64,000 bases of DNA, taken from positions 1-64,000 of the forward strand of contig CAADGI010000020.1 in NCBI GenBank assembly GCA_900696495.1. Direction: 5' to 3'. Shown in pieces: positions 24-64,000 of the stretch; position 1 is the stretch's first letter, and each line of letters opens with the position of its first letter. The stretch comes from an uncultured Alphaproteobacteria bacterium (GTDB lineage: Bacteria > Pseudomonadota > Alphaproteobacteria > Micavibrionales > Micavibrionaceae). The notes beneath the pieces are model-generated. The model was not told the origin of the DNA. It saw only the letters and a program-made list of their open reading frames with translations, and did not search any database. A program made the translations under genes and the position numbers.

Positions 24-111
24 GTCATCCCGGCGAAAGCCGGGATCCATTCATCCGTTAGCTCAATCTGCCTCCGGCCTTTCCATGGATTCCAGCTTTC
101 GCCGGGATGAC
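24..111. repeat. Palindromic repeat, family A (head-to-head REP pair)
   Basis: Two inverted arms of the form GTCATCCCGGCGAAAGCCGG and its reverse complement flank a short centre, so the RNA could fold as two hairpins or one long stem. A lone arm start lies just upstream at about 4-15. Further copies occur at 14000-14078, 21117-21214, 24723-24800, 38396-38474 and 54239-54316. This copy is intergenic, upstream of mgtE. Confidence 0.9.
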
Positions 112-4334: not shown

Positions 4335-4387
4335 ACGCGAAGCCCCGAAGTAACGAAGCCCTTCTTCGCTCCTTCGTAACTTCGCGT
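4335..4387. repeat. Palindromic repeat, family B
   Basis: Inverted repeat with outer arms ACGCGAAG and CTTCGCGT and inner CGAAG/CTTCG blocks. Other copies are at 7345-7394, 53379-53441, 61939-62094 (interrupted by a family C copy) and 63880-63938. Confidence 0.8.
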
Positions 4388-4398
4388 AAAAAAAATAG

Positions 4399-6321: not shown

Positions 6322-7295
6322 GCGGCCCGCGAGGAAGTATCATTCAGGATATGCGGCACCTTGAAATGCACATCTTCCTTGATAATTGAAATTTCGCGGA
6401 TAGTAACGGTGAATCTCTCCTGCAGCCGCTCGATCACCTCGTCCACCAGCACTTCCGGCGCCGACGCGCCCGCCGTTAAGCCCAAAGACTTCACGCCCTC
6501 CAGCCACGCCCAGTCAATTTCTGAAGCGCGTTGCACCAAGGTCGATTTCGGGCACCCGTTCAGCGCGGCCACTTCCACCAACCGCATCGAGTTCGATGAA
6601 TTCGGCGCGCCGATCACGATAATCGCGTCGCTTTCCGGCGCGATCGCCTTCACCGCTGCCTGCCTGTTCGTGGTGGCGTAGCAGATATCTTCCTTATGTG
6701 GTCCCTGCATCTGCGGAAATTTTTTTTGCAGCGCCGCGACGATCTCCGCCGTGTCATCCACCGACAGCGTCGTCTGCGTGCAGTACGCCAGCTTCGACGC
6801 ATCCGCGACATTCAGCTTCGCCACATCCTCGACCGTCTCCACCAGGAACACCGCCCCCGGCGGCAACTGCCCCATCGTCCCGATCACTTCCGGGTGCCCC
6901 GCATGGCCGATCAAAATAATCTGGTTGCCGTTCTTGTGGTAACGCTCCGCCTCCCAGTGCACCTTGCTCACCAGCGGGCATGTCGCGTCGATATAAAACA
7001 TCTCCCGCGCCCGCGCAGTCTCGGGAACGCTTTTTGGCACGCCGTGCGCCGAAAAAATCACCGGCCTGTCCTCGTGCCCCGCCGGAATTTCATCCAGCTC
7101 CTCGATGAACACCGCGCCCTTCGCGCGCAAAGAATCCACCACATATTTATTGTGCACGATTTCATGCCGCACATAGACAGGCGCGCCGTATTTCCCCAGC
7201 GCCTTTTCCACGATCTGGATCGCGCGGTCCACCCCCGCGCAAAAGCCCCGCGGGGACGCCAGCAACACTGTCAAAGATGCCTTGTTCATGCCCAT
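6318..7295 (-). CDS. ispH: 4-hydroxy-3-methylbut-2-enyl diphosphate reductase
   Basis: Last step of the MEP isoprenoid pathway: an iron-sulfur enzyme that makes IPP and DMAPP from HMBPP. The three cluster cysteines are visible in [20 protein letters not shown] and [10 protein letters not shown], together with the substrate-binding GHAGHPEV and SSNSMRL motifs. At 325 residues it is of normal length. It leads a two-gene unit with the P-loop ATPase. Other pathway genes in this window are dxs, ispA and ispB. Confidence 0.96.
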
Positions 7296-7344: not shown

Positions 7345-7394
7345 ACGCGAAGAAACGAAGCCACGAAGCGCTTCGCCTCTTCGTAACTTCGCGT
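7345..7394. repeat. Palindromic repeat, family B
   Basis: Outer arms ACGCGAAG and CTTCGCGT with inner CGAAG/CTTCG blocks, as at 4335-4387. Intergenic, between divergent ispH and the lipoprotein gene. Confidence 0.8.
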
Positions 7395-7415
7395 AAAAAC
7401 AATGAAATAGTACTA

Positions 7416-9595: not shown

Positions 9596-9841
9596 ATGGC
9601 CGCCGCTAACGCACTGGAAAAAATGAGTTTTGAGGAAGCCCTCGAAGAGCTGGAAACCATCGTCCGCGACCTTGAAACCGGCAAGGCGCCGCTCGAAAAA
9701 TCCATAAGCTCGTACGAGCGCGGCATCGCGCTGAAGCAGCACTGCGAAAACAAGCTGCGCGACGCCCGCTCGAAAATCGAAAAAATCACCGTCGGCAAAG
9801 ACGGCTCGCTCTCCACCAAACCCTTCGACCAAAAAGAATGA
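9596..9841 (+). CDS. xseB: Exodeoxyribonuclease VII small subunit
   Basis: Small helical subunit of exonuclease VII, which degrades single-stranded DNA with the large subunit XseA. The 81 residues carry the family core FEEALEELETIVRDLETGK and a second helix with SYERGIALKQHCENKL. The ATG at 9596 is used; a TTG four codons upstream is possible. It stands just before ispA, the usual proteobacterial order xseB-ispA-dxs. Confidence 0.93.
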   Translation: MAAANALEKMSFEEALEELETIVRDLETGKAPLEKSISSYERGIALKQHCENKLRDARSKIEKITVGKDGSLSTKPFDQKE

Positions 9842-9883
9842 AACCACAGATGAAGAGCGCAGAGAAAGTGAACCAGTTTTTTA

Positions 9884-9951
9884 AACCACAGCGGCCACAG
9901 GCGAAGCACAGCGACATTCGCGCTGAACGCGCCTGTGTTTTCGCTGTGGTT
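9884..9951. repeat. Palindromic repeat, family C
   Basis: Arms AACCACAGCG and CGCTGTGGTT with a GCGCTGAACGCGC-type centre. It lies between xseB and ispA; a degenerate ACCACAGATGAAGAG block precedes it at about 9843. Confidence 0.75.
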
Positions 9952-10012
9952 CAATTCTTTTTTCTAAGCCGCGCAAGATCTTTTAACTTACAACTTAGGA
10001 CTTGTAACTGAC

Positions 10013-10924
10013 ATGGCCCCATCCCCCCGCGACGCCAGCCCCGGGCTGCAACAGGCGATGGACGACAGCGCCGAGGCCGTCAACCGCACCATCGAACGCT
10101 TGCTTCCCCAAACCGATCTCGCCGAGGCCCCGCTCTATGACGCCATGCGCCACGGCGTGCTGGCCGGCGGCAAACGCCTCCGCCCATTCCTCGCGGTTCA
10201 TTCGGCGTTCCTGTTCAATGTCGATCCCGGCCGCGCGCGCCGCGTCGCCGCCGCCGTCGAATTCATTCACTGCTATTCGCTGATCCATGACGACCTCCCC
10301 GCCATGGACGACGCCGCCCTCCGCCGCGGCCACCCGACCGTTCACAAAAAATACGGCGAGGCCACCGCCATCCTCGCGGGCGACGCGCTGCTCACCCTCG
10401 CCTTCCAGGTTCTCTCCGAACCCGAAACCCATGAAGACCCGCGCGTGCGCTGCGAACTTATCCGCTCGCTCGCCGTCGCCTCAGGCGGCCACGGCATGGT
10501 CGGCGGCCAGATGCTCGATCTCATCGGCGAGCAGCAGGATTTCGACCTTGGCACCATCTCGCGCATGCAGCGCATGAAAACCGGCCAGCTCATGGCCTTC
10601 GCCTGTGAATCCGGCTCGATCCTCGGCAAGGCGTCCGAGCCGCACAGGAAAGCGCTCCGCAATTACGCCTACGACCTCGGCCTCGCCTTCCAGGTCACCG
10701 ATGACATCCTGGATGTCGAAGCCGACCCGCAGGACACCGGCAAGGACACGAAAAAAGACGCGCAGGCCGGCAAATCGACCTTCGTCCGCGCCATGGGCAA
10801 GCAGCAGGCGCGCGAACGCGCCGAAATGCTGGTGCAACAAGCCATCGGCCATCTCTGGGTCTTCGAAGGCCGCGCCGAACTCCTCAAAGAACTCGCCCAC
10901 CACGTCCTCAAACGCCGGGCTTAA
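10013..10924 (+). CDS. ispA: Farnesyl/geranyl diphosphate synthase
   Basis: Short-chain trans-prenyltransferase that condenses IPP with DMAPP and GPP. At 303 residues it has both aspartate-rich motifs: the first as HDDLPAMDD followed by LRRG, the second as DDILD, plus GGKRLRP near the N-terminus and GGQMLDL in the middle. The two extra residues in the first motif are typical of bacterial type II FPP synthases, which separates it from the longer-chain synthase at 43812. Part of the xseB-ispA-dxs neighbourhood, but two orphans separate it from dxs here. Confidence 0.93.
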   Translation: MAPSPRDASPGLQQAMDDSAEAVNRTIERLLPQTDLAEAPLYDAMRHGVLAGGKRLRPFLAVHSAFLFNVDPGRARRVAAAVEFIHCYSLIHDDLPAMDDAALRRGHPTVHKKYGEATAILAGDALLTLAFQVLSEPETHEDPRVRCELIRSLAVASGGHGMVGGQMLDLIGEQQDFDLGTISRMQRMKTGQLMAFACESGSILGKASEPHRKALRNYAYDLGLAFQVTDDILDVEADPQDTGKDTKKDAQAGKSTFVRAMGKQQARERAEMLVQQAIGHLWVFEGRAELLKELAHHVLKRRA

Positions 10925-12425: not shown

Positions 12426-14444
12426 ATGAAACAGGCCCCGAAACATAACCCCGCGCCCCAGCCGGACTCCCTTCTTGACCGCGTTCACGTCCCCGCCGAC
12501 ATGAAAGCGCTGAGCGACGCCGAACTGAAAATCCTCGCCGAAGAACTCCGCCGCGACATGATTCAATCCGTCTCCAAAACCGGCGGCCACCTCGGCGCCG
12601 GCCTCGGCGTCGTCGAGCTCACCGTCGCCATCCACGCCGTGTTCGACACGCCCGCTGACAAACTCATCTGGGATGTCGGCCACCAGGCCTACCCGCACAA
12701 AATCCTCACCGGCCGCCGCAGGCAAATGCACACGCTTCGTCAGGGCGGCGGGCTCTCCGGCTTCACCAAACGCTCCGAGTCCGAATACGATCCCTTCGGC
12801 GCCGCGCACTCCTCCACTTCCATCTCCGCTGCTCTTGGAATGGCGGTTGCACGTGATTTAAATCAAAAACAAAATCACCAGGTCACCAGATCGCCAAACC
12901 ACGTCATCGCCGTCATCGGCGACGGCGCCATGTCCGCCGGCATGGCCTACGAAGCCATGAACAACGCCGGGACCTTGAAATCCCGCCTCATCGTCATCCT
13001 CAACGACAACGACATGTCCATCGCCCCGCCCGTCGGCGCCATGTCGCGCTACCTCACCAAACTCGTCTCGTCGCAGCCTTACATGAACGCGAGGCAAGCC
13101 GGAAAAAAATTCACCGAAATCCTCCCCGCCCCGCTGCGCCACGCCGCCAAGCGCGCGGAAGAAGCCGCCCGCGTCGCGCTCGGCACCGGCACGCTGTTCG
13201 AGGAAATGGGCTTCTACTACATCGGCCCCGTCGACGGCCACAACTTGGACGCCCTCCTCCCGATCCTGCGCAATATCCGCGACTCCGATCACGAAGGCCC
13301 CGTCCTCATCCATGCCATCACCCAAAAAGGAAAAGGTTACCTCCCCGCCGAAAATTCCTCCGACAAAATGCACGGCGTCAAAAAATTCGACGTCGTCACC
13401 GGCGAACAGGCCAAGGGCAAAATCGGCGCGCCGACCTACACCAAAGTCTTCGCGCAATCTTTAATCGCCGAAGCCAAACGCGACGAAAAAATCATCGCCA
13501 TCACCGCCGCCATGCCCGACGGCACCGGCCTCGACCTCTTCTCCTATGAATTCCCCGACCGCGCCTTCGATGTCGGCATTGCCGAGCAGCACGCCGTCAC
13601 CTTCGCCGCCGGCCTCGCCGCCGAAGGCTTCAAACCCTTCTGCGCCATCTACTCCACATTCCTGCAGCGCGCCTACGACCAGGTCGTGCACGACGTCGCC
13701 ATACAAAATCTCCCCGTCCGCTTTGCGCTCGACCGCGCCGGGCTGGTCGGCGCCGACGGCCAGACCCACGCCGGATCGTTCGACATCGCCTATCTCGGCT
13801 GTTTACCAAACTTTGTCCTCATGGCCGCCAGCGACGAAGCCGAACTCGCCCACATGGTCGCCACTGCCGCCGCGCATGATGCGGGCCCCATCGCTTTCCG
13901 CTACCCGCGCGGCGAAGGCACCGGCGCCGGGCTTCCGGCACAGGGCGAAATTTTAGAAATCGGTAAGGGAAGAATTGTTTATGAATCCCCATTATCCTCG
14001 TCACCCCGGCGAAAGCCGGGGTCCATGGAACCCACCAGCGCTAACGTCGAAATGGATTCCGGCTTGCGCCGGAATGACAGTGTAGAGAGCGTAGCCATCC
14101 TCTCCTACGGCACCCGCCTATCGGAATCCCTCAAGGCCGCCAAACTCCTCGAGGAAAAAAACATCCGCGTCACCGTCGCCGACGCCCGCTTCGCAAAACC
14201 GCTCGATGAATCTCTCATCCGCACCCTCGCCGCCAACCACGCCACGCTCATCACCATCGAGGAAGGCTCCATCGGCGGCTTCGGCGCCTTCGTGCTGGAT
14301 TTCATGAATCGCGAAGGCCTGCTCGCCCATTGCCGCGTGAAAAATCTCTACCTCCCCGACATCTTCCAGGACCACGACGACCCCGCCAGGCAATACGAAA
14401 CCGCCGGCCTGACGGCGCGGGATATTGTTAAGATGATTTATTAG
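12426..14444 (+). CDS. dxs: 1-deoxy-D-xylulose-5-phosphate synthase with a repeat-derived insertion
   Basis: TPP enzyme that condenses pyruvate and glyceraldehyde 3-phosphate, the entry step of the MEP pathway. TPP-binding [18 protein letters not shown], the catalytic region [13 protein letters not shown] and the C-terminal ILSYGTRL domain are all visible. Two stretches exceed the family norm: about 7 extra residues before the GDG motif ([13 protein letters not shown]), and about 35 residues after GKGRIVYE that are translated from a family A palindromic repeat (14000-14078). The frame is kept through the insertion, so the gene is probably functional. ATG at 12426 is chosen because AGCAGG precedes it. 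Confidence 0.95.
14000..14078 (+). repeat. Family A palindromic repeat inside dxs
   Basis: A 79-bp copy with arms GTCACCCCGGCGAAAGCCGG and CCGGCTTGCGCCGGAATGAC lies in frame within dxs and encodes [10 protein letters not shown] ... MDSGLRRND. The copy in ygfZ (38396-38474) has the same length and is read in the same frame. Confidence 0.9.
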
Positions 14445-20650: not shown

Positions 20651-21105
20651 AGAAGTATCTTTTCTTTTTGCGCAGACAGCGTGCCCTGGTCGATGATCGC
20701 CACGGTCAGGCGCGAAATCGCGACGCGTTTTCCGGTCGCTTCCTCGGTAATGTCCGTCTGCCAGACCTGCGTGCGCTTGCCCACATGCAGCGGCGTGCAG
20801 GTGCCGATGACATGACCTTTCGTCACCGCGCGGATATGGTTGGCGTTTATTTCAATGCCCACGGCGCGGTATTTGTCCGGATCGATCGTCATCCATGAGG
20901 CGACGCTCCCCAAACTCTCGGCAAGAACGCAACTCGCGCCGCCATGCAGAATGCCGAATGGTTGAGTCGTGCGCTTGTCCACCGGCAGACGCCCTTTCAG
21001 GAAATCCGGCCCCACCTCGGTGAATTCAAAACCGATATGCGCGCTCATATTCGTATTGCGAAAGGATTTAAGATCGCCAAGCGTGTAATTTTTAAACCAG
21101 ATCAT
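20647..21105 (-). CDS. Hotdog-fold thioesterase, PaaI/YdiI-like
   Basis: Acyl-CoA thioesterase of the 4HBT superfamily. The 152 residues show the diagnostic HGGASCVLAES (about 54-64), with the glutamate acting as general base, and the closing strand TGKRVAISRLTVAII. Closest pattern: YdiI/MenI and PaaI hydrolases of aryl-CoA esters. The substrate cannot be told from sequence. It is downstream of fabI on the same strand, separated by a family A repeat. Confidence 0.85.
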   Translation of the reverse strand: MIWFKNYTLGDLKSFRNTNMSAHIGFEFTEVGPDFLKGRLPVDKRTTQPFGILHGGASCVLAESLGSVASWMTIDPDKYRAVGIEINANHIRAVTKGHVIGTCTPLHVGKRTQVWQTDITEEATGKRVAISRLTVAIIDQGTLSAQKEKILL

Positions 21106-21116
21106 TTTCCTATACC

Positions 21117-21214
21117 GTCATTCCGGCGAAAGCCGGAATCCATTCATCCATCTGCGCGATAAACTGAAAATTACTCTCATTCTCTCCATGGACCCCGGCC
21201 TTCGCCGGGGTGAC
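21117..21214. repeat. Palindromic repeat, family A
   Basis: Arms GTCATTCCGGCGAAAGCCGG and CCCCGGCCTTCGCCGGGGTGAC with a longer 50-nt centre; 98 bp in all. It lies between fabI and the thioesterase gene. Confidence 0.85.
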
Positions 21215-21224
21215 GAGGGGTTTA

Positions 21225-24722: not shown

Positions 24723-24800
24723 GTCGCCCCGGCGAAAGCCGGGGTCCATTTTCGAACATGAATACTGAAAAAAATGGATTCCGGCTTTCGCCGGAATGAC
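24723..24800. repeat. Palindromic repeat, family A
   Basis: Arms GTCGCCCCGGCGAAAGCCGG and CCGGCTTTCGCCGGAATGAC; 78 bp. The closing ATGAC supplies an ATG in frame with htpG, but the real htpG start lies downstream. Confidence 0.88.
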
Positions 24801-38072: not shown

Positions 38073-38879
38073 ATGGCAGAAACAGCGTTTTATACAACCC
38101 TGAAAAATCGAGGGATCGTGCGGGTTTCCGGCCCGGACGCCCGCAAATTCCTGCAGGACATCATCAGCAACGACATCAACCTGCTGGACGCGCAACCCTG
38201 TATCTACGCCTGCCTGCTGAACGCGCAGGGAAAATTCCTGCATGATTTTTTCATCACTGGAAAAGACGGCGCGCTTCTCCTCGAATGCGAGGGCGGCCCG
38301 CGCGCGCAGGATTTATTCTCCCGCCTCTCAAAATACAAACTCCGCGCCAATGTGAAAATTGAATGTGAGGAAAGCGTTGCCGTTTATATAATATTGTCAT
38401 CCCGGCGAAAGCCGGGATCTATGGTTAACACAATTGAAAATGTTGAAATGGATCCCGGCTTTCGCCGGGATGACAACTTTGTTGCTGACCCGCGCCATCC
38501 TGATCTCGGCTTCCGCACATTTGAAAAACCAAAACTTCCTGAACAACCATTCGAAACATGGGACCGCTTCCGCATTTCTCTTACCATCCCCGACGGCAGC
38601 CGCGATCTCATCCCTGAAAAATCCACGCTCGACGAAGGCCGCATCGATAAATTAAACGGCGTCTCCTACGACAAGGGCTGTTACGTAGGCCAGGAACTTA
38701 CCGCGCGCATGCATCACCGCGGCCTCGGCAAAAAACATCTTTATACGATTAACGGCGAACTGCTTCGCGAACCCGGCGGGGAAATCCGCGTGAACGACGC
38801 CCTGCTCGGCGAAATGCGCTCGCGCTGCGGCGATATCGGGCTGGCGCTGCTTAAGGATGAATATGGCGGCAGTGAATGA
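38073..38879 (+). CDS. ygfZ: Iron-sulfur cluster assembly protein YgfZ with a repeat-derived insertion
   Basis: Folate-binding protein of the GcvT fold needed to maintain certain Fe-S enzymes. The signature KGCYVGQELTARMHHRG is intact near the C-terminus, and the N-terminal GPDARKFLQDIISND is typical. Between the N-terminal domain and ADPRHPDLGFRTFE lies an extra stretch of about 28 residues (SSRRKPGSM ... MDPGFRRDD) translated from a family A palindromic repeat at 38396-38474. The frame is unbroken, 268 residues in all, so the protein is probably made. Confidence 0.93.
   Translation: MAETAFYTTLKNRGIVRVSGPDARKFLQDIISNDINLLDAQPCIYACLLNAQGKFLHDFFITGKDGALLLECEGGPRAQDLFSRLSKYKLRANVKIECEESVAVYIILSSRRKPGSMVNTIENVEMDPGFRRDDNFVADPRHPDLGFRTFEKPKLPEQPFETWDRFRISLTIPDGSRDLIPEKSTLDEGRIDKLNGVSYDKGCYVGQELTARMHHRGLGKKHLYTINGELLREPGGEIRVNDALLGEMRSRCGDIGLALLKDEYGGSE
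38396..38474 (+). repeat. Family A palindromic repeat inside ygfZ
   Basis: 79 bp, arms GTCATCCCGGCGAAAGCCGG and CCGGCTTTCGCCGGGATGAC. It is read in the same frame as the copy in dxs and has the same length. Confidence 0.92.
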
Positions 38880-53378: not shown

Positions 53379-53441
53379 CACGAAGATTCGAAGTAACGAA
53401 GAAGAATAAAATAAAAACTTCGTTTCTTCGTTACTTCGCGT
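53379..53441. repeat. Palindromic repeat, family B
   Basis: GCACGAAGATTCGAAGTAACGAAG at one end and TTCGTTACTTCGCGT at the other. It separates rph from rdgB. Confidence 0.7.
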
Positions 53442-53451
53442 TTAAATTTTT

Positions 53452-54238: not shown

Positions 54239-54316
54239 GTCATTCCGGCGAAAGCCGGAATCCAAGCTGACGATAGCGCAGGCGTCTCCATGGACCCCGG
54301 CTTTCGCCGGGGTGAC
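54239..54316. repeat. Palindromic repeat, family A
   Basis: 78 bp, arms GTCATTCCGGCGAAAGCCGG and CCCCGGCTTTCGCCGGGGTGAC. It sits between divergent rph and hrcA, 38 nt before the hrcA start. Confidence 0.88.
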
Positions 54317-57064: not shown

Positions 57065-57071
57065 TTTGCCA

Positions 57072-57100
57072 TTGACATAACGAAAAACACTGCGCTAAAT
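57072..57100 (+). promoter_or_regulatory. Promoter of the 148-aa orphan
   Basis: TTGACA (57072-57077), a 17-nt spacer and CTAAAT (57095-57100), 8 nt after the grpE stop. Context ATTGACATAA as at 19795 and 57604. Confidence 0.6.
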
Positions 57101-60752: not shown

Positions 60753-61919
60753 ATGAGCAAGGATTTTTACAAAACCCTCGGCGTCCAGAAGGGCGCGTCG
60801 GCGGATGAGATTAAAAAATCCTACCGCAAGCTCGCCATGCAATACCACCCCGACCAGAACAAGGGCAACGCCGACGCCGAGAAGAAATTCAAGGAAATCA
60901 GCGAAGCCTACGATGTCCTGAAGGACGAGCAGAAACGCGCCGCTTACGACCGCTTCGGCGCGGCGGCGTTCGATGGTTCCATGGGCGGCATGGGCGCCGG
61001 GCGCCCCGGCGGCGGTTTCAACGCGCAGGATTTCTCCGGCTTCGGCAGCGCCTTCACCGATATTTTCGAAGACATGTTCGGCGACCTCGGCGGGCGCGGG
61101 CGCTCCTCGCCCGGACGCGGCCAGGACATGCAATACACGCTCGAGATTTCCCTCGAGGATGCCTTCAAGGGCCGCGAAGCCGTCATCAAGGTGCCGCTCA
61201 ACGATGTCTGCGAACAATGCAAGGGCTCCGGCTCCGAAGGCGGCGCGGCGGGCGTCGAAAATTGCGACACCTGCGACGGCCATGGCCGCATCCGCCAGCA
61301 GCAGGGCTTCTTCACCATCGAACGCGTCTGCCCCACCTGCGGCGGCCAGGGCAAAACCGTCAAGAATCCCTGCAAAAAATGCGGCGGCTCCGGGCGCACG
61401 CAAAAAGAAAAACAACTCAAGATCAAAATCCCGCCCGGCGTTGATCACGGCCGCCGCATCCGCCTCTCCGGCGAAGGCGAAGCGGGTCTGCGCGGCGGCG
61501 AGCGCGGCGATCTGTTCGTCCTGCTGGCATTGAAGCCGCACAAATTCTTCAAACGCGATGGCGCGCACCTTCACTGCCGCGTGCCGATCACCATGACTCT
61601 CGCCGGGCTCGGCGGCGACGTCGAAGTTCCCACGATCGAAGGCGTGCGCTCGAAAGTCAAAATCCCGCCGGGCACCCAGACCGGCCAGCAATTCCGCCTC
61701 AAAGGCAAGGGCATGACCGTGCTCGGCTCCGACGCGCGCGGCGACATGTTCATCGAGATTTTCGTCGAAACGCCCGTCAACCTTGATAAAAAACAACAGG
61801 AACTGCTCAAACAGCTTGAAAAAACCATGGGCGGCACACGCGAAGCGAGCAAGAATTCGCCTGAATCCAGCGGCTTTTTCAGCAAGATGAAAGATATATG
61901 GTCGGACCTGAAGGAATAA
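60753..61919 (+). CDS. dnaJ: Chaperone DnaJ (Hsp40, class A)
   Basis: Co-chaperone of DnaK. The 388 residues have a J domain with MQYHPDQNK, a Gly/Phe-rich linker, four zinc-finger repeats (CEQCKGSG, CDTCDGHG, CPTCGGQG, CKKCGGSG) and two client-binding barrels. Only 24 nt separate it from the small J-domain gene. Confidence 0.97.
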   Translation: MSKDFYKTLGVQKGASADEIKKSYRKLAMQYHPDQNKGNADAEKKFKEISEAYDVLKDEQKRAAYDRFGAAAFDGSMGGMGAGRPGGGFNAQDFSGFGSAFTDIFEDMFGDLGGRGRSSPGRGQDMQYTLEISLEDAFKGREAVIKVPLNDVCEQCKGSGSEGGAAGVENCDTCDGHGRIRQQQGFFTIERVCPTCGGQGKTVKNPCKKCGGSGRTQKEKQLKIKIPPGVDHGRRIRLSGEGEAGLRGGERGDLFVLLALKPHKFFKRDGAHLHCRVPITMTLAGLGGDVEVPTIEGVRSKVKIPPGTQTGQQFRLKGKGMTVLGSDARGDMFIEIFVETPVNLDKKQQELLKQLEKTMGGTREASKNSPESSGFFSKMKDIWSDLKE

Positions 61920-61938
61920 AAAATAAAAAATGATTTAA

Positions 61939-62094
61939 ACGCGAAGTTACGAAGGAACGAAGATTATTAAACCACAGAGTTCACAGAGAAAAATTGGAGT
62001 TGACAGAGAAGCATAAAAAAAACTCCACGATCTCTTTTAAACTCTGTGTTCTCTGTGGTTAAAATTTTTACTTCGTTTCTTCGTTGCTTCGCGT
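61939..62094. repeat. Family B repeat interrupted by a family C repeat
   Basis: Outer arms AACGCGAAGTTACGAAG (about 61938-61954) and CTTCGTTGCTTCGCGT (about 62079-62094) enclose a family C copy at 61970-62060 (AACCACAGAGTTCACAGAGA ... TCTCTGTGGTT). A nested insertion is the simplest reading. Confidence 0.75.
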
Positions 62095-62140
62095 AAACTA
62101 ATTTTAATGCGTGTTCATTCGTGGTTAAAAAGGCATTGAA

Positions 62141-62911
62141 ATGAAAATCGGCATCGTCGGCTGCAAGGGCAGGGTCGGAACCCTCCTCGTCAATGAAATC
62201 CGCTCCGGCAACTGGAAGGGCGTTGGCCTGTCCGGCGGCACCGTGCTGCCCCAGGACATGAAAGGCAAAAGCGATTTTTTTATCACCACCGACGCCGAGG
62301 AGCTTTTCAAAAAATCCGACGCCGTCATTGATTTCACTTCCCCCGCCGCGACGCGCAAACACGCCGCGCTCGCCGCGAAACATAAAAAGGCGCTGATCAT
62401 CGGCACCACCGGCCTCTCCGTCGCCGATGAAAAGGAAATCGCCAATGCGGCGAAAAAAACAACCATCGTCCAGTCCGCGAATTTCAGCGTCGGCGTCAAC
62501 GTCCTGCTGGCTCTCGTCGAGCGTGGCGCCGCGACGCTGGACGAGGATTTCGATATCGAGATTTTCGAGGCGCACCACAAGAACAAGGTCGACTCGCCCT
62601 CCGGCACCGCCCTCGCCCTCGGCAAATCCGCCGCCAAAGGCCGCAAGGTCGACCTCAAACGCGCCGCCGACTACGCCCGTCACGGCGAAACCGGCAAACG
62701 CAAGCGGGGCAAAATCGGGTTCTCGGTCGCGCGCGGCGGCGATGTCGTCGGCGATCACCGTGTCTTTTTCTACGGCGAAGGCGAGCGCGTCGAGCTTTCG
62801 CACATCGCCACGAACCGTTCGCTCTACGCCCGCGGCGCCATCCGCGCCGCCCTCTGGACGAAAGGAAAAAAACCCGGCCTCTACTCCATGAAAGACATCC
62901 TGGGACTTTAA
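62141..62911 (+). CDS. dapB: 4-hydroxy-tetrahydrodipicolinate reductase
   Basis: NAD(P)H enzyme of lysine and diaminopimelate synthesis. The 256 residues show the nucleotide loop GIVGCKGRVG, IIGTTGLS, the catalytic EAHHKNKVDSPSGTAL and the C-terminal dimer region with VARGGDVVGDHRVFF. It supplies meso-DAP for the peptidoglycan that the PBP at 2234 cross-links. Confidence 0.95.
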   Translation: MKIGIVGCKGRVGTLLVNEIRSGNWKGVGLSGGTVLPQDMKGKSDFFITTDAEELFKKSDAVIDFTSPAATRKHAALAAKHKKALIIGTTGLSVADEKEIANAAKKTTIVQSANFSVGVNVLLALVERGAATLDEDFDIEIFEAHHKNKVDSPSGTALALGKSAAKGRKVDLKRAADYARHGETGKRKRGKIGFSVARGGDVVGDHRVFFYGEGERVELSHIATNRSLYARGAIRAALWTKGKKPGLYSMKDILGL

Positions 62912-63879: not shown

Positions 63880-63938
63880 ACGCGAAGTCCCGAAGAAGCG
63901 AAGTTTATATTATTCTTCGGAACTTCGGATCTTCGCGT
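63880..63938. repeat. Palindromic repeat, family B
   Basis: ACGCGAAG ... CTTCGCGT with inner CGAAG/CTTCG blocks. It fills the right end of the window; a half family C copy (CTGTGGT) follows at about 63967. Confidence 0.75.
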
Positions 63939-64000
63939 AAAAAATCTAATTTTTATCTGTGTCCATCTGTGGTAAAAATTTCTATGCAAAAGAAGATCCA

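Follow-up and report, generated by a model that had tools for sequence, protein, structure and literature searches.

A palindromic dimer inside ygfZ and related repeats

The stretch of DNA analysed here, 64,000 nucleotides long and referred to as the window, carries a ygfZ gene whose reading frame is open throughout and encodes 268 aa, a 79-bp palindromic insert included (Table 1). The insert is read as LSSRRKPGSMVNTIENVEMDPGFRRDD, with the N-terminal domain on one side and the segment ADPRHPDLG on the other. The N-terminal side matched PF01571 at residues 14-88 (Pfam) and the C-terminal side matched TIGR03317 at residues 163-243 (NCBIfam; 67.3 bits, cut-off 49), consistent with an intact gene and with an earlier note on this DNA, which had placed the copy in frame in ygfZ. 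In a structure model built on alignment A1 (29 rows) the fold stays confident (mean pLDDT 88.1); the insert forms a loop (blocks about 50-52), a second weaker stretch lies at residues 201-220 (pLDDT 67-74) and most other blocks are at 91-98. We read the insert as a non-autonomous REP dimer that the gene tolerates.

We assign this dimer to the CGTC-1 REP family because its stem, loop, tag, tail and head-to-head pairing agree with the description of Di Nocera (2013). Its units fold as ATCCCGGC-GAAA-GCCGGGAT, an 8-bp stem starting with AT and closed by a 4-base loop, and its outer tags (TTGTCATCC...GGGATGACAA) are the TGTC variant of the CGTC/TGTC tag. The tails, CCA on the right and CTA on the left, and the head-to-head orientation are likewise those of CGTC-1. 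In that description (PMC3733652), CGTC-1 REPs form head-to-head (HH) dimers and some units lie within genes. The copy number also agrees: with up to 3 mismatches allowed, the 2.04-Mb genome contains 109 matches to the unit pattern and 0 to the reversed pattern used as a control, so the repeat is dispersed beyond chance. At up to 5 substitutions there were at least 41 head-to-head dimers and at least 34 single units (75 places among the matches listed).

Table 1. Genes, REP dimers and insertion sites in the window.
Feature	Position	Strand	Remarks
88-bp REP dimer	24..111	+	
ispH-like coding site, empty in the window	6794..6821	-	
dxs with in-frame REP dimer	12426..14444	+	start codon approximate; TIGR00204, NF003933
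79-bp REP dimer in dxs, linker before the C-terminal part	14000..14078	+	frame as in ygfZ
98-bp REP dimer	21117..21214	+	clean empty site in both congeners (G001, G002); ATCA on both sides
78-bp REP dimer upstream of the htpG-like gene	24723..24800	+	
ygfZ (CAF17-like folate-binding protein)	38073..38879	+	PF01571, TIGR03317, ortholog alignment A1
79-bp REP dimer in ygfZ	38396-38474		two 26-base hairpin units head to head, 27-base spacer
Left REP unit	38396..38421	+	TGTC tag, 8-bp stem ATCCCGGC/GCCGGGAT, loop GAAA, tail CTA
Dimer spacer	38422..38448	+	head-to-head dimer
Right REP unit, inverted	38449..38474	-	tail CCA
78-bp REP dimer outside confirmed genes	54239..54316	+	empty in G002; another palindrome family in G001

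The second 79-bp copy lies in dxs, which is matched by TIGR00204 (779 bits, in two stretches) and by NF003933 (PRK05444), the latter spanning residues 19-671 of 672. An odd hydrophilic stretch of the Dxs protein, upstream of the REP insert, may be another insert. We take the gene downstream of the 78-bp dimer at 24723..24800 to be htpG, and the gene with the empty site at 6794..6821 presumably encodes IspH. No uniform target duplication was seen across the insert sites compared. Only one site shows a clean duplication (21104-21224, flanked on both sides by ATCA); we draw no target-duplication rule because the other sites show filler bases, which lie beside several of the inserts.

The window also holds a second repeat family, of CTTCGTTTCTTCGTTACTTCGCGTTTAAA type, at 4364-4396, 7371-7403, 53418-53450, 62071-62103 and 63915-63947 and in inverted copies; for several copies of this family, one or both congeners lack the repeat. 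At 9830-10013 and 61918-62141 there are polymorphic inserts containing ACCACAG...CTGTGGT stretches, which G001 lacks at the corresponding position, and at 57071-57090 the window is without about 509 bp that G001 and G002 both have.

GIY-YIG genes between inverted REP units

Upstream of the htpG-like gene, where the window has a REP dimer, G001 and G002 have instead a 0.4-kb element in which a GIY-YIG gene (94 aa, PF01541) lies between inverted palindromes. Matches to the GIY-YIG family (all E ≤0.001) were present in 38 of 58 relatives. We scored the flanks of these genes by the best local inverted match between the 150 nt upstream and the 150 nt downstream, with a threshold of at least 12; this score was used because a strict palindrome detector, which found both flanks in only 22/70, had missed many imperfect flanking units. 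Paired inverted flanks reached the threshold in 55 of the 70 family members scored in relatives (from 77 non-weak places, less one contig edge and six fragments), compared with 116/686 when a flank was paired with that of another locus. The arms lay a median of 26 and 27 nt from the matched stretch. Control ORFs, which are mechanical ORFs of 80-400 aa rather than annotated genes, reached 12 in 3/210 cases in these loci and in 2/96 and 3/61 cases in the loci of the named genomes and of the phylum-wide draw described next (8/367 in total).

The association extends beyond these relatives. It was found for 26/30 family members in named genomes chosen for carrying CGTC-1 dimers (24/27 without three distant paralogues) and for the best loci of a phylum-wide draw (22/29; 101 of 299 genomes with a match). 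Of 12 replicons picked for spread from the 33 records of a plasmid collection, 9 reached the threshold. Clear CGTC-type pairs are those of S. meliloti, Shinella, Rhizobium, N. aromaticivorans and A. lipoferum; the N. gonorrhoeae replicon passes with a less regular REP set, and the replicons of R. tumorigenes, Photobacterium and Spirosoma score below 12. Distant GIY-YIG paralogues reached 12 in 0/16 cases in relatives and 2/3 in the named set (2/19), and because of the latter the group is not a clean negative. A search of open-access titles and abstract beginnings, covering the top matches only and with subscription journals and preprints outside its scope, returned no report of a GIY-YIG/REP link.

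Two further arrangements were observed. REP-like-flanked GIY-YIG genes lie directly downstream of dxs in two genera (L290 in G018; L101, 10731-10997, in G001). Distant GIY-YIG genes in L375, L376 and L386 also stand beside other repeat types, among them GTTCGTCCTGAGC... in L375 and GTTCATGCTGAGG... in L376; L376 and L386 pass the flank score and L375 fails, and because two of them pass, the GIY-YIG/repeat association may reach beyond GTC-tagged REPs.

Over 28 GIY-YIG copies, Y7, Y18, G20, R28, H32, E65 and N84 are invariant, and with them the residues of catalytic type. The protein model has a GIY-YIG fold (pLDDT 94.8), and among solved structures only UPF0213 matched below E 0.001 (2e-4), followed by Slx1 and UvrC at about 0.04-0.06. 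Slx1 acts on branched DNA, which suggests by analogy a putative action of the nuclease on cruciforms. The phylogenomics of GIY-YIG proteins has been treated elsewhere (PMC1564403).

The main alternative is that the GIY-YIG genes are passengers, homing into pre-existing REPs as safe sites, and that REPs spread otherwise, by replication slippage, recombination or an unknown enzyme. The numbers in the window's own genome lean this way, with only 9 GIY-YIG Pfam matches to the 109 REP units, as does the lack of a strong nuclease family member in 7 of the 25 named genomes with CGTC-1 dimers (5 without a match, 2 with weak ones only). Some GIY-YIG genes, moreover, adjoin whole dimers rather than single units (in A. 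lipoferum and in C23 of the window's genome). The one GIY-YIG copy of this genome with CCA-tailed CGTC-1 ends is broken. Against passengers stand the inverted flanks themselves, which match within a locus far more often than between loci, and the nuclease tree, which is tracked by REP type: REP core types require 35 changes on it, compared with a mean of 49.5 and a minimum of 41 in 500 shuffles (34 and 47.9 with one copy per genome and type), a link that may partly reflect host relatedness. In addition, some dimers resemble element ends joined without the gene. With unit tails trimmed, 5 of 26 dimer spacers fitted the joined ends of GIY-YIG elements at no more than 2/200 shuffles, the clearest being that of Kaistia (score 15, 0/200), in a comparison that used an element of another genus for 8 of the 26 dimers and whose five fits do not cover the 79-bp ygfZ family; the spacers of the other 21 were unlike joined ends. 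An untrimmed version of this test was discarded, since shared unit tails overstated the fit and inflated G024, and the trimmed test stands. On balance we regard the passenger explanation as rather unlikely, and a REP-flanked GIY-YIG nuclease as the most likely mover of ygfZ-type REP dimers.

Reading frames and repeated use of the same linkers

The two 79-bp copies share a reading frame, as the earlier note had stated, and it took this agreement for a sign of selection on a mobile, protein-coding palindrome. The left unit can be read as SSRRKPGS (A), VIPAKAGI (B) or HPGESRD (C) and the right unit as DPGFRRDD (A'), WIPAFAGMT (B') or ...PG-stop (C'), the last being the TGA-ended frame that the same note had seen. 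Dimer length modulo 3 fixes two open combinations and one closed one. For 79 bp, AA' and CB' are open, and because only two of the three readings are open the agreement of ygfZ and dxs, both AA', has a probability of 1/2.

We therefore counted frames in 14 in-gene dimers with a protein profile that spans the insert or matches both sides. The combination AA' is used in ygfZ, dxs, dusA and argC of the window's genome and in cobN, a type ISP methyltransferase gene and prmC elsewhere; BA' in an ELM1-like gene (own genome; Pfam match in two stretches), in cobN again, in a Methyltransf_28 protein and in queG; CB' in a DinG-like helicase gene (own genome) and czcA; and CA' in valS. The cobN gene of L144 (1026-4949) carries two in-frame dimers in different frames. 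Two confirmed single units, which give MDPGFRRDD in cobT and PIPASAGMT in anmK, were left out of the dimer count, as were L160 and L184 (two dimers), whose long open frames lack a supporting profile, L167 and L233, in which the recognised domain begins only after the dimer, L205, L226, L177 and L008 (no Pfam match) and other open-frame cases such as L148, L176, L201, L215, L221 and L239. A codon score replaced a hexamer coding score, which was too noisy with its 31-kb training set.

Four of the six open combinations thus occur in confirmed genes. For the left unit each of the three readings occurs (A 7, B 4, C 3; the excess of A has P=0.15). The right unit is read mostly as DPGFRRDD (12 to 2 for WIPAFAGMT; two-sided P=0.013), or 10:2 (P=0.039) without ygfZ and dxs, the copies that prompted the count; all these P values are generous, since not all cases come from separate genomes and genes. 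Of the frame bias that the earlier note had proposed to look for across the genome, a small excess is seen in the right unit only.

That the palindrome codes for protein and is kept for one selected reading frame would fit the agreement of dxs and ygfZ and the 12:2 count of the right unit. The three left-unit frames, the four combinations in use and the position of most examined copies outside confirmed genes argue otherwise, and we consider such selection improbable; frame bias as its sign was rejected in the form proposed. The excess of DPGFRRDD fits the loss of intolerable insertions as well as it fits selection for the peptide. Insertion into genes is avoided, not favoured: 8 of the 75 listed places lie in confirmed genes, in a genome whose window is about 88% ORF by a greedy count. 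The in-gene copies are not confined to pseudogenes, however, a case the earlier note had held open as a refutation, and dxs, ygfZ, dusA, argC, cobT, valS and prmC are without pseudogene signs. Depletion and frame use together are the outcome to be had when insertions are random and purifying selection acts on them; the hydrophobic WIPAFAGMT reading is at most mildly disfavoured. What stands of the mobile, protein-coding palindrome is its dispersal and its in-frame presence in sound genes; a single preferred coding frame is not supported.

In neighbouring species the dxs, ygfZ and ispH linkers are occupied by palindromes of other families, always inserted in frame. At the ygfZ site the congeners G001 and G002 are not empty: they have, likewise in frame, a single REP-like unit that differs from that of the window, and G013, of another genus, has a third palindrome. 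This linker could be read by motif in 29/30 loci, and no palindrome was recognised in the other 25 of the 29. The dxs linker holds different repeats in G000, G001, G002, G013 and G028; it was readable by motif in 14/30 loci and shorter in the other 9 of the 14. Most other relatives' dxs align to about residue 195 of the query and resume at about 230, as expected of genes without the insert. The repeat in the dxs linker of L115 (G028) is read as TPSPLREREGPGTAKQEREGEG. At the ispH-like site G001 and G002 each have a different in-frame palindromic insert.

It might be argued that such inserts descend from a single ancient insertion, altered since by mutation, and do not reflect re-use of a site, as the left junction of the ygfZ insert lies at an identical base in three congeners. 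The palindrome families of these inserts, however, differ in core and in length, and the ispH-like site is empty in the window's genome, which makes common descent from one insertion quite improbable.

A proposed nuclease-linked element and its relation to known systems

We think it fairly likely that the CGTC-1 dimer is a non-autonomous element of about 80 bp, spread by REP-flanked, single-domain GIY-YIG nucleases of about 95 aa, and REP dimers probably derive from REP-[GIY-YIG]-REP elements and lack their gene. What the data show is the association, the conservation of residues and the turnover at sites; nuclease activity, mobility, copying and a causal role of the enzyme are inferred. In this scheme autonomy would lie with the REP-[GIY-YIG]-REP unit, and the dimer would be its version without the gene. 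The nuclease would cut REP hairpins or cruciforms, or else the target DNA. A REP-ended segment could then be copied into the break during its repair or by template switching; at an occupied site, one REP family would be swapped for another. Within genes, surviving copies would be those that keep the frame open (any but the TGA-ending one) and fall in tolerant linkers.

A mover of another kind, the RAYT (Y1) transposases, is suggested by the RAYT-REP pairs described for GTAG REPs (PMC3733652; see also PMC2817692) and by Y1_Tnp matches in 15/58 relatives, the dimer-carrying G021 and G023 among them, yet it is highly improbable for CGTC REPs, since the tag here is (T/C)GTC rather than GTAG, no Y1_Tnp match was found in G000 (the window's genome), G001, G002 or G024, all of which carry REP dimers, and no transposase is described as associated with CGTC REPs in PMC3733652.

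A wider claim concerns CGTC REPs together with related GTCAT...ATGAC palindromes, which translate as RRKPGS...DPGFRRDD, WIPAFAGMT or CHSERSEES...AQDD. These could form one large mobile class, a minimal GIY-YIG gene between inverted hairpins with gene-less dimers as offspring, that moves by nuclease-triggered repair, returns repeatedly to the same sites, by new invasion or by swapping, and leaves essential enzymes with in-frame peptides; we hold the case for this class to be evenly balanced. CGTC REPs were described in 2013 as apparently without a dedicated transposase (PMC3733652), a gap that would be closed if small GIY-YIG nucleases mobilise them. A common and usually ignored class of bacterial repeats would gain a directly testable enzyme and a second, unrelated solution would stand beside RAYT-REP. 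It would also explain why bacterial proteins, among them enzymes like DXS, carry such peptide tags. As a set of natural experiments, the site turnover seen in dxs, ygfZ and ispH can tell which protein linkers accept foreign peptides.

The in-frame insert itself is a known REP type; what goes beyond known REPs is the turnover of families in the same linker and the GIY-YIG genes between inverted REP-like units. In the published account (PMC3733652), CGTC-1 REPs share with the ygfZ dimer the 8-bp, AT-first stem, the 4-base loop, the TGTC tag, the CCA-type tail, the HH dimers and the in-gene units, and differ in that a GIY-YIG nuclease gene is here enclosed by such units and a single linker is occupied by different families in sister species. 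RepRanger is described in PMC12306157. Rickettsia palindromic elements, of which RPE-6 equals CGTC-1 and RPE-4 equals CGTC-4 in the same account (PMC3733652), are similarly palindromes in frame in real proteins, but of another host group and, in the text consulted, with no linked gene reported. REPtrons (RAYT with GTAG REPs) also have short palindromic repeats flanking a small nuclease or transposase gene, with a GTAG tag and a Y1 enzyme where we find GTC and GIY-YIG. GIY-YIG homing endonucleases and UPF0213 proteins share the fold and catalytic-type residues, whereas the proteins described here, at about 95 aa, have no room for an extra DNA-binding domain, are flanked by REP pairs and occur in several copies per genome in many relatives. 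Finally, MITEs resemble the dimers as short, gene-less elements with inverted ends and a proposed autonomous partner; here, unlike in MITEs, the ends are hairpins themselves and the insertions lack a uniform target duplication.
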